Made by a program: the position numbers and the translations under genes. A stretch of DNA of 64,000 nucleotides from Arthrobacter sp. SW1 (lineage in GTDB: Bacteria; Actinomycetota; Actinomycetes; Actinomycetales; Micrococcaceae): positions 310,001 through 374,000 of the forward strand of contig NZ_MJLT01000045.1 in the NCBI RefSeq assembly GCF_001766675.1, read 5' to 3'. Below the pieces are notes generated by a model. It was not told the DNA's origin and did not search any database. It saw nothing but the letters and a program-made list of their open reading frames with translations. Shown here one piece after another: positions 42,501 through 57,534 of the stretch (within the stretch, counting starts at the first letter, position 1; every line of letters begins with the position of its first letter).

Positions 42501-42533
42501 ATCCCCGGTAAGGCAAGGCTTACAGCGGCTTCG

Positions 42534-42613
42534 TGACGAAATGTTTCCCTAGGTGACTTAGCGTTTCCGGTCCTTTGTGACGCAATTCCGGCCACACCTA
42601 CAGTCGATGCATG
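42534..42613 (+). promoter_or_regulatory. Conserved sulfur-gene promoter, copy A (sulfite reductase)
   Basis: An 80-base block from TGACG (42534) to the ATG. GTTTCC covers positions 30-35 of the block (42563-42568), -35 TTGTGA is at 42575-42580, an 18-base spacer follows, and -10 TACAGT is at 42599-42604. Six bases remain before the ATG, so the mRNA is probably leaderless. The same elements occur at identical spacing at 50349-50428 and 57455-57534. Confidence 0.75.
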
Positions 42614-47780: not shown

Positions 47781-49068
47781 ATGCAGGACAACGACGCCCG
47801 GAAGGCCCGCCCGCTCAGGCTGGGCGCCAACTACACCCCCAGTCGCGGCTGGTTCCACAGCTGGCAGGACTTCGACGCCGACGAGGTCCGCCGCGACCTC
47901 GAATCCATCGCAAAGCTCGGGCTGGACCACATCCGGGTCTTCCCGCTCTGGCCCGAACTGCAGCCGTCCCGCAGCCTGATCCGCCGCAAGACCGTGGAGG
48001 ACGTGGGCACGGTGGTGGACGTGGCCGCCGAGTTCGGGCTGGATGCGAGCGTGGACGTGCTGCAGGGGCACTTGTCCAGCTTCGACTTCCTGCCGGCCTG
48101 GCTGCATAGCTGGCACCGCCGCAACATGTTCACGGATCCGGACGTCGTGGCCGCGGAAGCTGAACTGCTGCGGGCCCTGGCCGCGGAACTCTCCGGCCGG
48201 TCCAACGCCCTGGGCCTCACCATCGGCAACGAAACCAACCAGTTCGCCGCACCGTGGCACCCGGACCCGCACCGGCTCTCCAGCGAAGAAGCCGGCAGCT
48301 GGCTCGGCACCCTCCTGGGCGCCGCGAAAGAGGCCTGGCCCGCAGGAACCCACCAGCATTCCTTCGATGACTCGGCGCTCTTCAAGGAGGACATGCCGTT
48401 CACGCCGCGGCACGCGGCCACCCTTGGTGACCTCAGCACCGTGCATTCCTGGGTGTTCGGCGGCGCAGGGGCAGCGCTACGGCGAACGGCACCCCGCGCT
48501 GGTCCATTTCGCCGACTACCTGGTGCAGTTCGTCACGGCCTTCGCCGCGGATCCGGCCCGCCCCGTCTGGGTCCAGGAAGTCGGCGCACCCGCCCCGTGG
48601 GTCGCCGCCGGGGACGCCGCGGACTTCGCCACCGCCACGGTGCGCCACCTCGCAGGCAATCCGAACCTCTGGGGCATCACCTGGTGGTGCTCGCACGATG
48701 TCAGCCGGGACCTTGCCGATTTCCCCGAGCTTGAATACTCGCTCGGCCTGCTGGACAGCAGCCGCAAGCCCAAGCCCGCCGGGCTGGCCCTGGCCGGACT
48801 CATCGGCGAGCTGCGCAGCTCACCACCTGCCGCCGTCGTGCCGGGCAGTTCAGTACACAAAACCGCCATGGTCATAGCGCTCGACGACGAACACAGCACC
48901 GCGGGCCGCAGCCGTTACGGCGTCACGGGGGAGTTCTTCGACGCATGGCTGCAGGCCGCCGTCGACGGTGAACCGCCCGCGCTGGTGCTGGAAAGCCGCG
49001 CCACGGACCCCGCCTACCTCGCCGCCCGCGGCATCACCAGCCTCATCGGCAGCCCCCTCCGAAAGTGA
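47781..49068 (+). pseudogene. GH5-like glycoside hydrolase gene with a single-base frameshift
   Basis: The first frame (47781 to about 48458) encodes a TIM-barrel glycosidase start: LGANYTPSRGWFHSWQDF, LDHIRVFPLWPELQPS and LTIGNETNQFAAPWH with the putative acid/base Glu. The homology then continues one frame over, from 48460, as AAQGQRYGERHPALVHFADY, PVWVQEVGAPAPWV (putative nucleophile Glu) and WGITWWCSHDVSRDLADF to TGA 49068. Removing one G near 48459 restores a 428-residue protein. Both catalytic Glu segments are intact, so this is either a recent mutation or a sequencing error. The end overlaps the fucosidase start (GTGA). Substrate uncertain, perhaps a mannan-type glycan. Confidence 0.7.
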
Positions 49069-50333
49069 GTCCCATGCATTCCCTCAAGGCCACCCCCGAG
49101 CAGCTCGCCTGGCAAGCAGACCGCATGGGCGTCTTCTTCCATTTCGGCATCAACACCTTCCACGGCAAGGAATGGAGCGACGGCACCCTTCCTGCGCAGT
49201 CCTTCAACCCCACGGAACTCGACGCCGAACAGTGGGTCCGCACCGCGAAAGAAGCCGGCGCGAAGTACGTGGTGCTCACCACCAAGCACCACGACGGTTT
49301 CTGCCTGTGGCCCACCGCGCTCACGGAGTACTCGGTGGCGTCGTCGCCGTGGAAGGACGGCAAGGGCGATGTGGTGGCGGAGGTCGCCGCGGCATGCCGG
49401 AAGCTCGGCGTGAAGCTGGGCCTCTACCTGTCGCCGTGGGACCGGAACGCGGAGTGCTACGCCGATTCGAAGGCGTACGACGAGTTCTACCTTGGCCAGT
49501 TGCGGGAACTGTGCAGCAACTACGGGCAGCTCCACGAGCTCTGGTTCGACGGCGCCGGCTCCGAAGGCCACGAATACGACTGGGCACGGATCGCGGCCCT
49601 CATCGAAGAACTGCAGCCCGGTGCCATGGTCTTCAACATGGGCCGCCCCACCATCCGCTGGGTGGGCAACGAGGACGGCCTGGCCGCGGATCCCGTGGAG
49701 TACGTGGTGGAGCAGACGGATTTCTCCAACTACACCGTGGTGACCACCAAACTTGAAGAGGCCCTGTACCTGCCTCCCGAATGCGATGTCTCCATCCGCC
49801 CCGGCTGGTTCTGGCACGCGGACCAGGAGCCCAAGACCCTGGAGCACCTGCTGGCCATCTACTACCGTTCGGTGGGCCTGGGCGCGAATCTCCTCCTCAA
49901 CCTGCCGCCGGACACCCGCGGCCTGCTCCCGGAGGAGGACGTGCGGCGCGTGCGGGAATTCGGCGCCGAGGTCACCCGCCGCTTCGGCTCGCCGTTGCCG
50001 GCTGCCGTGCGAGAGCTGGGGAAGGGGCGCTGGGAATTGGACTTCGGTGAGCCTGTCACGATCGACCACCTCCTGCTCGCCGAAGACCTCTCCGACGGCC
50101 AACGCGTGCGCGGCCACCGTGTCCTGTCCGACGACGGCCTGCTTGCCGCCGGGAAAACCATCGGCTCCCAGCGCATCCACGCCTTCCCGGCCGCCACAGT
50201 GCAGCGGCTCACCGTGGAGCTGGAAGCCGTCGACGGCGCCCGGCTGGCCGCCGTCGACGGCTTCCGGACCGGTGCCGAAAGCATCCCGGAGGTCGCCTAC
50301 TTGGCGCCCACCGACTACCCGGAAGATCACTGA
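49065..50333 (+). CDS. Alpha-L-fucosidase, GH29 family, intracellular
   Basis: A 422-residue GH29 enzyme without signal peptide. Motifs: MGVFFHFGINTFHGKEW, KYVVLTTKHHDGFCLWPT, GLYLSPWDRNAECYADS and, for the nucleophile region, LHELWFDGAGSEGHEYDW; the C-terminus adds a small beta domain (WELDFGEPVTIDHLLLAED). GTG 49065 overlaps the preceding stop. It would remove fucose from glycans or oligosaccharides taken up by the cell. The neighbouring frameshifted glycosidase presumably acted on the same substrate. Confidence 0.85.
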   Translation: MSPMHSLKATPEQLAWQADRMGVFFHFGINTFHGKEWSDGTLPAQSFNPTELDAEQWVRTAKEAGAKYVVLTTKHHDGFCLWPTALTEYSVASSPWKDGKGDVVAEVAAACRKLGVKLGLYLSPWDRNAECYADSKAYDEFYLGQLRELCSNYGQLHELWFDGAGSEGHEYDWARIAALIEELQPGAMVFNMGRPTIRWVGNEDGLAADPVEYVVEQTDFSNYTVVTTKLEEALYLPPECDVSIRPGWFWHADQEPKTLEHLLAIYYRSVGLGANLLLNLPPDTRGLLPEEDVRRVREFGAEVTRRFGSPLPAAVRELGKGRWELDFGEPVTIDHLLLAEDLSDGQRVRGHRVLSDDGLLAAGKTIGSQRIHAFPAATVQRLTVELEAVDGARLAAVDGFRTGAESIPEVAYLAPTDYPEDH

Positions 50334-50348
50334 ACCGGCACCCGTATG

Positions 50349-50428
50349 TGACGCTGCATGAAGTTGCGTGACCCCCGGTTTCCATGCCGTTGAACGGCAA
50401 ACAGGCCAGTCCCTACTGTGAATCCATG
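50349..50428 (+). promoter_or_regulatory. Conserved sulfur-gene promoter, copy C (ssu leader)
   Basis: An 80-base block starting with TGACG (50349) and ending at the ATG 50426-50428. GTTTCC is at 50378-50383, -35 TTGAAC at 50390-50395, the spacer 18 bases and -10 TACTGT at 50414-50419, six bases before the ATG. All positions match copies A and B. Here the ATG opens a short Cys-containing ORF rather than the transporter gene. Confidence 0.75.
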
Positions 50429-50482
50429 ACCACGATGGACTGGTCCTTGCCTGCCCTTTACGGGCGATGTTGCGGGACCTGA
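50426..50482 (+). CDS. Leaderless 18-residue Cys-Cys leader peptide upstream of ssuA
   Basis: ATG at 50426 is exactly where transcription should begin, six bases after the -10 TACTGT. It opens an 18-codon ORF, MTTMDWSLPALYGRCCGT, stop TGA 50480-50482, 42 bases before ssuA. Two adjacent Cys codons (TGT TGC, 50468-50473) are the 15th and 16th codons. Leaderless polycysteine short ORFs are known in mycobacteria as cysteine-responsive attenuators of sulfur operons, where ribosome stalling on Cys codons alters expression downstream. Context (sulfonate uptake) and geometry fit that model. Translation is not proven. Confidence 0.7.
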   Translation: MTTMDWSLPALYGRCCGT

Positions 50483-50502
50483 TTTTTCAGCCCCAACCCG
50501 CA
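50471..50502 (+). promoter_or_regulatory. Hairpin after the leader peptide, candidate attenuator
   Basis: TGCGGG (50471-50476) pairs with CCCGCA (50497-50502); inside it CTGA-TTTT-TCAG forms a second small stem. The second Cys codon is part of the left arm, so a ribosome stalled there would prevent pairing. Separately, TCCTT at 50444-50448 could pair with the ssuA ribosome site AAGGA (50512-50516). Confidence 0.5.
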
Positions 50503-50524
50503 CCATCTTCAAAGGAAACCTCCC

Positions 50525-51673
50525 ATGTCACAGACCCCTGAGTCTTCGCAGCCATCAAGCGGCACCGTCCGCATCGTCGCCGGACAGAACCCCAAGCCCA
50601 AGGCCGGCCGCGGCCTCAAGGTCGGCATCGCCGTCGGACTCGCCCTGCTGATCGGCGCGGGCGCGGCCGTCGCCTCCGTCGTTGCGGGCAACGGCAACGC
50701 GGCACCGGCCGCGGCCCCGTCACCCGCCACCGAACTCAAGCTCGGCTACTTCGGCAACGTCACGCACGCTCCCGCACTGGTGGGCGTCAGCAAGGGCCTG
50801 ATCGCCAAGGAACTGGGCAGCACCAAGCTCAGCACCCAGACCTTCAACGCGGGCCCCGCCGCGATCGAAGCCCTCAACGCCGGCGCCATCGACGCCACGT
50901 ACATCGGGCCCAACCCGGCCATCAACTCCTTCGTCAAGAGCAACGGCGAATCCATCCGCATCATCGCGGGCGCAGCAGCCGGCGGTGCACAGTTGGTGGT
51001 CAAGCCGGGAATCAACTCCGCGGCGGACCTCAAGGGCAAGACCCTCGCCTCCCCGCAGCTCGGCGGCACGCAGGACGTCGCCCTCCGGGCTTGGCTGCTG
51101 AAGCAGGGCTACAAGACCTCCACGGACGGCAGCGGCGACGTCAACATCAACCCCACGGAGAACGCCCAGTCCCTGAAGCTCTTCCAGGACGGAAAGATCG
51201 ACGGCGCGTGGGTACCCGAGCCCTGGGCCTCCCGCCTGGTGCTCCAGGCCGGCGGCAAGGTGCTGGTGGACGAGAAGGAGCTGTGGGAAAAGGGCGAGTT
51301 CGTCACCACCGTGCTGATCGTGAACAAGAAATTCGCCACCGAGCACCCGGAGACCGTCAAGGCACTCCTGAAGGGCCATGTTGAATCCGTGAAGTGGCTG
51401 AACTCCGCGCCGGCCGATGAAAAGGCCTCCGTGATCAATGCGGCGCTCAAGGACAGCGCCGGCAAGCCGCTGGCCGCGGACGTGATCGCCCGCTCCCTGA
51501 AGAACATCACGTACACCACCGACCCCCTGGCCGGCACGTACAAGAAGCTCCTGCAGGACGGCGTGGACGCCGGAACCACCAAGCAGGCGGACATCAACGG
51601 GATCTTCGACCTCCGCGGCCTCAACGAGGTCACCGGGACGAAGACCTCGGCAGCCGGCCTTGGTGCGGACTGA
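50525..51673 (+). CDS. ssuA: Sulfonate ABC transporter binding protein (SsuA-like)
   Basis: A 382-residue NMT1/SsuA-type solute-binding protein. Unusually the N-terminus is a cytosolic tail of about 30 residues, then one membrane segment (VGIAVGLALLIGAGAAVASV) with no lipobox Cys, so it is probably membrane-tethered. Binding-domain motifs: KLGYFGNVTHAPALVGVSKG, GAIDATYIGPNPAIN, KGKTLASPQLGGTQDVALRA and DGKIDGAWVPEPWASRL. AAAGGA lies eight bases before the ATG. First large gene of an ssuABC operon behind the Cys leader. Aliphatic sulfonates are the likely substrate; nitrate or taurine are less likely given the sulfur promoter. Confidence 0.85.
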   Translation: MSQTPESSQPSSGTVRIVAGQNPKPKAGRGLKVGIAVGLALLIGAGAAVASVVAGNGNAAPAAAPSPATELKLGYFGNVTHAPALVGVSKGLIAKELGSTKLSTQTFNAGPAAIEALNAGAIDATYIGPNPAINSFVKSNGESIRIIAGAAAGGAQLVVKPGINSAADLKGKTLASPQLGGTQDVALRAWLLKQGYKTSTDGSGDVNINPTENAQSLKLFQDGKIDGAWVPEPWASRLVLQAGGKVLVDEKELWEKGEFVTTVLIVNKKFATEHPETVKALLKGHVESVKWLNSAPADEKASVINAALKDSAGKPLAADVIARSLKNITYTTDPLAGTYKKLLQDGVDAGTTKQADINGIFDLRGLNEVTGTKTSAAGLGAD

Positions 51674-51759: not shown

Positions 51760-52503
51760 ATGCCAGTCGTACTGGAACATCTGGGTAAACGCTTCGGCGA
51801 CGGCGCCCCGGTGCTGGACGACGTCAACGCCACCATCGCGAAGGGCGAGTTCGTCGCGCTCCTCGGTGCCTCCGGCTGCGGCAAGTCCACCTTGCTGAAC
51901 ATCCTCGCCGGACTGGAACAGCCGACGTCGGGCGCCCTGGAAGTGCCGGCCGACGGCGCCGCCTTCATGTTCCAGGACTCCGCCCTCTTCCCGTGGCTGA
52001 CCGCCCGGGCCAACATCGAACTTGCCCTGCAGCTGGCCGACAAGAACGCCGGCAAGCGCAGCAGCAAGGCCGAGCGCAGCGCCCGCGCCACCGAGCTGCT
52101 GGAGCTGGTGCACCTGGGCGGGGCCGGGGACAAGCGCCCCCACGAACTCTCAGGCGGCATGCGCCAGCGCGTGGCACTGGCGCGTTCGCTGGCGCAGGAC
52201 CGGCAGCTGCTCCTCATGGACGAACCCTTCGCCGCGCTGGACGCCATCACCCGCGACCTCCTGCACGATGAACTGGAACGGATCTGGAAGGAAACCGGCC
52301 GGACCATCGTGTTCGTGACGCACAATGTGCGCGAAGCCGTGCGCCTGGGCCAGCGCGTCCTGCTGCTGTCCTCCCGCCCGGGCCGTGTGGTGGCCGAATG
52401 GGACGTCACCGAAGAACACCGTACCGACGCGGGCCGGGCCGGGGAACTGACCGCGACCATTACCCGCCGCCTGCGCGAGGAGATCCGCCGCCATGCCAAC
52501 TGA
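51760..52503 (+). CDS. ssuB: Sulfonate ABC transporter ATPase (SsuB-like)
   Basis: A 247-residue ABC ATPase of the nitrate/sulfonate/taurine class: Walker A LGASGCGKSTLLNILAGLEQ, FMFQDSALFPWLTA, signature LSGGMRQRVALARSL, LLLMDEPFAALDAITRDLLH and VFVTHNVREAVRLGQ. ATG 51760 has AAAGGA eight bases upstream; a longer in-frame start would include the hairpin. It overlaps ssuC by 11 bases. Confidence 0.9.
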   Translation: MPVVLEHLGKRFGDGAPVLDDVNATIAKGEFVALLGASGCGKSTLLNILAGLEQPTSGALEVPADGAAFMFQDSALFPWLTARANIELALQLADKNAGKRSSKAERSARATELLELVHLGGAGDKRPHELSGGMRQRVALARSLAQDRQLLLMDEPFAALDAITRDLLHDELERIWKETGRTIVFVTHNVREAVRLGQRVLLLSSRPGRVVAEWDVTEEHRTDAGRAGELTATITRRLREEIRRHAN

Positions 52504-53431
52504 ACAGGACGTCCGCCCCGTGACTGATCCCAACGTCGAAACCGGTCACATCACCTCGCCCGTCCTCAAGGGCAATCCCGAGGACTTGCGCGACCTCGAA
52601 GCCGGCCTGGACAAGCTCCAGTCCGACACGCAGCGCAAGGCCGGCATCGATTGGAGCCGCGTGCTGCTGCCGGTCGCGGCCTTGGTGGTGCTGATCCTCG
52701 TGTGGCAGTTCTACGTGTCCCTCGGCGTGAAGCGCCGCGACCTGGTCCCCGGACCGCTCGACGTCCTCGGCCAAATGGGCGTGCTCTGGTCCGAAGGCAA
52801 GGTCCAGGAATCGGTATGGACCTCGCTGCAGCGCGGCGTATTCGGCTTCCTCATCAGCGTGGTGATCGCGACGCCGGTAGGCCTGCTGCTGGCGCAGACC
52901 GCGCCGTTGCGCCGTGCCTTCGGCCCGCTGATTTCCGGCCTCCAGGTGCTGCCGTCCGTGGCGTGGGTTCCGGCCGCCATCATCTGGTTCGGCCTCAGCG
53001 ACGCCACCGTGTACTTCGTGGTGTTCATGGGCGCCATTCCGTCCATCATCAACGGGCTCATCTCCGGCGTGGACCAGATCCCGCCGCAGTACCGCAGCGT
53101 GGGCAAGGTCCTGGGCGCCAACCGGCTCCAGATGGCGTTGCAGATCATCCTTCCGGCGGCGCTGCCCGGCTACATCGGCGGCCTCAAGCAGGGTTGGGCC
53201 TTCTCCTGGCGCTCCCTCATGGCGGCCGAAATCATCGCCACCGGCGGCACCATCGGCTTCGGCCTGGGCTCGCTGCTTGACCAAGGCCGGCTCCTCTCGG
53301 ACATGGCCACCGTGATGTCCGCCATCCTGTTCATCCTTGCCGTGGGCATCCTCATCGAGCTGCTGGTCTTCGGACCCATCGAGAAGCGGCTCCTGCAGCG
53401 CCGCGGCCTGCTGGCCGGCGGAACGCGCTGA
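52493..53431 (+). CDS. ssuC: Sulfonate ABC transporter permease (SsuC-like)
   Basis: A 312-residue permease with about six membrane segments after a 55-residue hydrophilic N-terminus. The BPD-family loop is present: GANRLQMALQIILPAALPGY with SWRSLMAAEIIA. LQVLPSVAWVPAAIIWFGLS is typical of SsuC/TauC. Its start lies inside ssuB and a terminator follows 40 bases after its stop, closing the operon. Confidence 0.9.
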   Translation: MPTEQDVRPVTDPNVETGHITSPVLKGNPEDLRDLEAGLDKLQSDTQRKAGIDWSRVLLPVAALVVLILVWQFYVSLGVKRRDLVPGPLDVLGQMGVLWSEGKVQESVWTSLQRGVFGFLISVVIATPVGLLLAQTAPLRRAFGPLISGLQVLPSVAWVPAAIIWFGLSDATVYFVVFMGAIPSIINGLISGVDQIPPQYRSVGKVLGANRLQMALQIILPAALPGYIGGLKQGWAFSWRSLMAAEIIATGGTIGFGLGSLLDQGRLLSDMATVMSAILFILAVGILIELLVFGPIEKRLLQRRGLLAGGTR

Positions 53432-57454: not shown

Positions 57455-57534
57455 TGACGCCGGATTACCTCCCGTTAACCGGTGTTTCCGGGCCTTTGAA
57501 GCATGTTACGGCGCGGCCCTACAGTCTTTGCATG
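57455..57534 (+). promoter_or_regulatory. Conserved sulfur-gene promoter, copy B (siroheme synthase)
   Basis: An 80-base block from TGACG (57455) to ATG 57532-57534: GTTTCC at 57484-57489, GGGCC directly after it, -35 TTGAAG at 57496-57501, an 18-base spacer and -10 TACAGT at 57520-57525. Same layout as copies A and C; copies A and B also share GTTTCCGG.CCTTTG and CCTACAGTC. Confidence 0.78.

Follow-up and report, generated by a model that had tools for sequence, protein, structure and literature searches.

The question raised by this locus is whether the short reading frame found in front of the sulfonate uptake operon ssuABC could be a cysteine-responsive attenuator and, if so, which of its parts would do the sensing. 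Leaderless polycysteine ORFs act as cysteine-responsive attenuators in M. smegmatis, according to the accounts of Canestrari et al. 2020 in PMC9031893, PMC9094748 and PMC13236596, and the initial annotation of the window (the whole stretch of 64,000 nucleotides that was analysed) had proposed an attenuator of this mycobacterial type, marked by tandem Cys codons, before ssuABC. The locus is made up of the following elements.

50390-50395, + strand: -35 box TTGAAC, of which TTGA is equally spaced in the 79 leader loci described below
50414-50419, + strand: -10 box TACTGT, 18 nt after the -35 box and separated by 6 nt from ATG 50426
50426-50482, + strand: leader-peptide ORF MTTMDWSLPALYGRCCGT plus stop, 18 codons, predicted leaderless, 5' of ssuA
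50465-50470, + strand: Arg-Cys pair CGA TGT (TGT at 50468-50470), the proposed regulatory codon, invariant as Arg-Cys in leaders
50471-50473, + strand: second Cys codon TGC, unconserved, codon 16 being elsewhere CAC, CGC, TGC, TAC, AGC or a stop
50525-51673, + strand: ssuA, aliphatic sulfonate ABC transporter substrate-binding protein (TIGR01728, 190 bits against a cut-off of 163.5)
51763-52503, + strand: ssuB, transporter ATP-binding protein (start 51763 chosen; a longer ORF from 51691 is possible)
52493-53431, + strand: ssuC, permease

The positions first assigned to TACTGT, ATG 50426, the ORF, the Cys codons (50468-50473), the hairpin arms and the AAGGA/TCCTT complementarity proved correct throughout. 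The identity of the downstream genes was borne out as well, SsuA scoring above the TIGR01728 cut-off, and the leader stands at the 5' end of this sulfur-related operon.

SsuA relatives were gathered from GTDB genomes and their upstream regions were read, leader loci being chosen without selecting for cysteine. This yielded 79 distinct orthologous leaders, i.e. short leaderless-type ORFs behind the same promoter, which encode 58 different peptides and are all found 5' of ssuA in the genus Arthrobacter; on this comparison the leader is a conserved element and no one-off. With a strict pattern, leader-type matches among 395 Micrococcaceae genomes were confined to Arthrobacter, and no leaderless Cys ORF was observed 5' of ssuA relatives at 16 loci from other families of the order. 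A covariance model, built on the window's subclade and hence under-detecting the second subclade, gave at most one match per genome over 61 Arthrobacter genomes and none before a gene other than ssuA. Two of its matches had not previously been tied to ssuA: L277 is an ssuA at a contig end, and L287, which is outside the 79, carries a frameshifted leader and an apparently frameshifted ssuA in a low-quality MAG (79% complete). The leader matched no curated covariance model in a search of Rfam 15, and three longer orthologous leader peptides matched no NCBIfam profile, the 18-aa window peptide being too short for such a search. Two further loci, L027 and L205, keep the promoter and the leaderless ATG, followed by an ORF without Arg-Cys that overruns the ssuA start and is probably a degenerate leader. 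Many Pseudarthrobacter-like genomes also hold a second ssuA paralogue (L019, L028 and others among L032-L081), which displays a CGTAATCTC-type promoter and no such leader.

The promoter geometry argues for a leaderless start, as initially proposed. Across the 79 leaders the -10 box reads TACTGT in 36, TATGGT in 34 and TAGGGT in 7, and its distance to the ATG is 6 nt in 77. On the scale of the 4.1-Mb genome, the promoter-plus-ATG pattern TTGA-N18..20-TANNNT-N6-ATG has 8 matches compared to 1 for the reversed control. Furthermore, 27 loci (a count in which certain genomes occur in two collections) show the same operator and promoter with the leader gone, the ATG being there the start of ssuA itself, e.g. 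MTSSKPGMTRIVAGES. At locus L216, a leader-like N-terminus is fused in frame to SsuA (MRTTDRLSDGPENPAPGSRPGTTRIVAGD) while the Cys, the hairpin and the Shine-Dalgarno (SD) sequence are lost. In a tree of SsuA, the leader-bearing group is spread across the base of the genus, well-supported branches imply two or more changes to explain the leader-lost state, and one leader-lost locus lies beside the second leader subclade. Given these losses and the fusion, the relatives very probably use the leader ATG as a functional leaderless start. For the window itself we infer that transcription starts at ATG 50426 and that this ATG is used in the same way.

Within the ORF, the most constant feature is the Arg-Cys pair. 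It is present in 79/79 leaders, encoded by CGA TGT in 78 and by CGA TGC in one, even though both codons are rare among the genes of the window (1.3% of all Arg codons for CGA, 14% of all Cys codons for TGT). Cys is encoded at codon 15, 17, 19, 20 or 27, always in frame with the leader ATG, so that every change in the distance from the ATG to this codon is a multiple of three. In the second subclade the residues ahead of Arg-Cys are free to vary, and after the invariant Cys the leaders without the tandem continue with His, Arg, Tyr, Ser or a stop. In four leaders the stop is immediately 3' of the Cys, hence the conserved part ends at this codon. The tandem Cys codons, on the other hand, which had been taken as the defining feature, could not be upheld: they occur in 6/79 leaders, namely the window's nearest relatives (the A. 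cupressi group) and two distant leaders, and a single Cys codon is present in the remaining 73. Comparison across genomes thus retains the promoter, the ATG, the first Cys in CGA-TGT and the covariation of the hairpin, but not the second Cys; since the first Cys alone is invariant, the leader is not polycysteine in the strict sense. Two other candidates were set aside. The ATG inside CGATGT was rejected as a start for ssuA or for a second uORF, its frames relative to ssuA being distributed 28/26/25, and an arrest peptide is unlikely given the free variation ahead of Arg-Cys.

The RNA around this codon pair is predicted to fold into the elements listed here.

50442-50448, + strand: anti-SD segment GGTCCTT within the ORF, complementary to the ssuA SD (50442-50447 also complements 50474-50479)
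50453-50465, + strand: small hairpin P1, GCCC/GGGC, from folding
50466-50507, + strand: hairpin P2, GATG.TGCGGG ... CCCGCA.CATC, whose 5' arm includes the Cys codons and which encloses the uORF stop
50511-50516, + strand: ssuA Shine-Dalgarno AAAGGA, of which AAGGA (50512-50516) complements TCCTT (50444-50448)

The predicted fold of the window leader consists of a closing helix, formed by the GGTCCTT region and the SD, together with P1 and P2, a layout repeated in several relatives; its stability corresponds to z = -2.9 against dinucleotide shuffles, 3/200 shuffles being equally stable. The core of P2 (TGCGGG 50471-50476 with CCCGCA 50497-50502) is extended by GATG 50466-50469 with CATC 50504-50507. 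A hairpin beginning at the Cys codon had been described initially, and it is supported by covariation of the P2 arms. Indeed, the arm pairs differ among loci (CACGGGGC/GCCCCG, GCAGGGC/GCCCTGC, TGCGGG/CCCGCA and GCCGG/CCGGC), and cognate arms pair at -12.5 kcal/mol compared to -10.8 kcal/mol for swapped arms, a difference reached in 0/5000 permutations in which kinship is not fully corrected; the advantage holds with one representative per arm type. At L194, GGATC replaces GGGGC before CGATGT and GATCC is found downstream, an apparent compensatory change that lengthens P2. CGA-TGT is fixed at the foot of P2, hence the regulatory codon keeps a constant place relative to the RNA structure. In the window's subclade, RNAalifold pairs GGTCCT with the tail of the uORF (GGGCC/GGACC), a pairing exclusive with that to the SD, and the anti-SD codon TCC is present in 49/49 leaders. 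As both SD and anti-SD are invariant, their pairing can show no covariation, and none was found. No intrinsic terminator (GC-rich hairpin plus U run) was detected in the leader.

Modelling of ribosome positions on the leader gave different profiles in the two subclades. In the window's subclade (48 leaders) the unpaired probability of the SD is 0.09; it rises to 0.41-0.55 with a ribosome placed 12 to 2 codons before the Cys, and is 0.18 with a ribosome at the Cys and 0.11-0.18 past it, a profile that sets the switch boundary at the Cys codon. With a ribosome stalled at the Cys and others queued behind, the value is 0.50. The footprint of one ribosome at the Cys stops just short of the anti-SD, and the model therefore calls for queueing or for a generous footprint. 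The SD/anti-SD pairing of the initial annotation is in this way reinforced by its invariance and by the strong predicted masking of the SD in the window's subclade; for the window sequence alone, the predicted masking is modest and does not exceed that of shuffles (SD unpaired at 0.21 compared to 0.33, with 20% of the shuffles equally low). In the second subclade (28 leaders) SD masking is weak (0.49 unpaired) and unresponsive to ribosome position, and there a queue makes the whole initiation region cheaper to open, at 4.2 instead of 7.8 kcal/mol, a gain that is in part expected by construction.

The predicted ribosome-dependent opening of the SD or of the initiation region, combined with the lack of an intrinsic terminator, favours translation attenuation gated by Cys-tRNA, and we consider it reasonably probable that the leader, translated from a leaderless start, is a ribosome-mediated attenuator of ssuABC translation and a sensor of charged tRNA-Cys. 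According to this model, transcription would begin at ATG 50426 and the 18-codon ORF would be read by a 70S ribosome. With ample cysteine, this ribosome would clear the slow CGA-TGT pair, get to the nearby stop and depart, upon which GGTCCTT (50442-50448) would pair with the ssuA SD and P2 would be closed, resulting in low translation of ssuA. When Cys-tRNA is scarce, the ribosome would wait at TGT with others queued behind it, and the stalled ribosome and its queue would occupy the 5' arm of P2 and the anti-SD, so that the ssuA site opens. The conserved promoter and ATG, the frame kept up to the Cys, the invariant CGA-TGT, the covarying hairpin and the SD complement are what the aligned sequences offer to such a model, from which we infer the ribosome stalling, the opening of the SD and the direction of the cysteine response. 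The attenuator is also suggested by the persistence of CGA-TGT in 78/79 leaders despite the rarity of its codons and the free variation of the preceding residues in the second subclade, and by the fact that the downstream genes import sulfur, ssuA lying usually behind cysN. Against it speak the need for a queue or a generous footprint, the weak SD masking in the second subclade, the modest masking in the window itself and the invariance that deprives the SD pairing of covariation; moreover, a classical attenuator would be expected to have more than one Cys codon.

Two other readings, both improbable, keep the leader ORF as a functional element. The first one retains the same leaderless leader with a transcriptional output: once the ribosome is released at the uORF stop, Rho or another factor would gain access to C-rich RNA, which a ribosome stalled at the Cys would prevent. 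There is indeed an untranslated C-rich stretch (50489-50510) 3' of the uORF stop, the leader is terminator-less, and Rho was proposed by Seliverstov et al. 2005 for terminator-less Mycobacterium Cys leaders (PMC1262725). However, the untranslated stretch is just 37-53 nt, which is short for Rho loading, and the invariant SD/anti-SD complementarity of the window's subclade would be left unexplained. The second, which we regard as no likelier, is a constitutive translational coupling where the uORF always delivers ribosomes to a masked ssuA site and CGA-TGT is a pause that is not cysteine-specific. The opening of the SD by a ribosome anywhere before the Cys in the window's subclade, the rarity of both codons and the unconserved second Cys would all agree with it, but other rare codons would serve as a pause equally well and the Cys is kept in 79/79 leaders; moreover, the operon that follows is one for sulfur uptake.

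Appreciably less plausible still is that the invariant GGCGATGT acts as a motif in RNA or DNA, whether bound by protein or structural, and that the ORF is incidental. In favour of this reading, CGA TGT is invariant even at synonymous positions and, within the window's subclade, GATG has a pairing partner in CATC; on the other hand, GATG has no constant partner in the second subclade, the ATG internal to CGATGT has no preferred frame, the five ATG-to-TGT lengths are each a multiple of three and stop-free, and the leader ATG translates ssuA in the natural fusions. An ordinary 5' UTR with ORF and hairpin by chance, which the shortness of the window ORF and its unconserved tandem Cys might suggest, is hardly credible, being contradicted by the 79 distinct loci, the covariation and the fold z-score.

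Upstream of the leader, one more element may contribute to regulation of the operon.

50368-50383, + strand: candidate operator GTGAC-N5-GTTTCC, common to the sirA-cysHDN promoter and found upstream of most ssu leaders

The same sequence occurs twice before the leaderless sirA-cysHDN promoter (42533-42568), and a variant, GTTAA-N5-GTTTCC (57474-57489), precedes a leaderless siroheme-synthase-like gene at 57532. Three other exact matches of the operator pattern in the genome lie outside likely promoters, are apparently intragenic and have no adjacent sulfur gene. Both sirA and the siroheme-synthase-like gene are predicted to be leaderless without a leader ORF, and their promoters (at 42575-42613 and 57496-57534) show the same geometry (-35 box, 18 nt, TACAGT, 6 nt, ATG). 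The distribution of the operator suggests a common sulfur regulator acting on initiation, to which the leader would add a second layer at ssu alone. In 42 of 54 leader-bearing relatives, the 1.5 kb that flank the leader on its upstream side include the end of cysN; in the window, two glycosidase-type ORFs (47781-50333) lie between cysN and ssuA.

Compared to known systems, the Arthrobacter leader resembles the mycobacterial leaders, as presented in the accounts cited above, in that a sulfur operon opens with a short leaderless ORF containing Cys codon(s), and in the proposed translation attenuation by ribosome speed at Cys; it differs from them, as they are presented there, in having one invariant Cys within CGA-TGT in place of a run, as well as a sulfonate uptake operon, a conserved hairpin and an SD complement. 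The initial interpretation stands for the leaderless uORF and for ssuABC downstream, but not for the polycysteine run. Cys-run leaders without terminators have also been predicted before cys operons of Mycobacterium and Propionibacterium acnes and before cbs of Bifidobacterium longum (PMC1262725). These share with the Arthrobacter leader a short ORF, Cys near the stop, a sulfur operon and no intrinsic terminator, whereas they have Cys runs and no conserved hairpin found, where the Arthrobacter leader has a single conserved Cys, a covarying hairpin and another gene family. Streptomyces lividans has several leaderless leaders, including metL before metNIQ with RCMCRRMC (PMC8079986); by description, metL (MSTTSDRTPATEATTTPGARCMCRRMCAF) is alike in its leaderless start, Arg-Cys near the end, sulfur-compound importer and absence of a clear terminator, and differs in its several Cys/Met codons and in being methionine-dependent according to its authors. 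With the classical trp, his and ilv attenuators the leader has in common a regulatory codon in the leader ORF and mutually exclusive RNA pairings but, unlike them, it is terminator-less, starts leaderless and its output is probably ssuA translation. By analogy, then, the Arthrobacter leader may work like known Cys leaders yet lacks their run of Cys. No report of Arthrobacter or sulfonate leaders of such kind was found in the open literature.

More tentatively, and with somewhat less than even confidence, we propose that a single TGT behind a very rare CGA suffices to control a sulfonate transporter by way of an RNA of three helices, where the anti-SD has two partners that exclude each other, in a leader repeatedly removed in evolution with ssuA left starting at the leaderless ATG. 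The invariant rare pair turns this into a sharp, testable claim on single-codon sensing of tRNA charging, for which the natural pairs, with the leader present or lost in favour of a leaderless ssuA, are ready comparisons. If the attenuator is real, a codon run would be unnecessary for cysteine attenuation, and cysteine-responsive leaderless attenuation, known from mycobacteria and their operons, would reach soil Arthrobacter and an operon for sulfonate uptake. The leader would then probably let Arthrobacter raise its sulfur uptake when cysteine is short.
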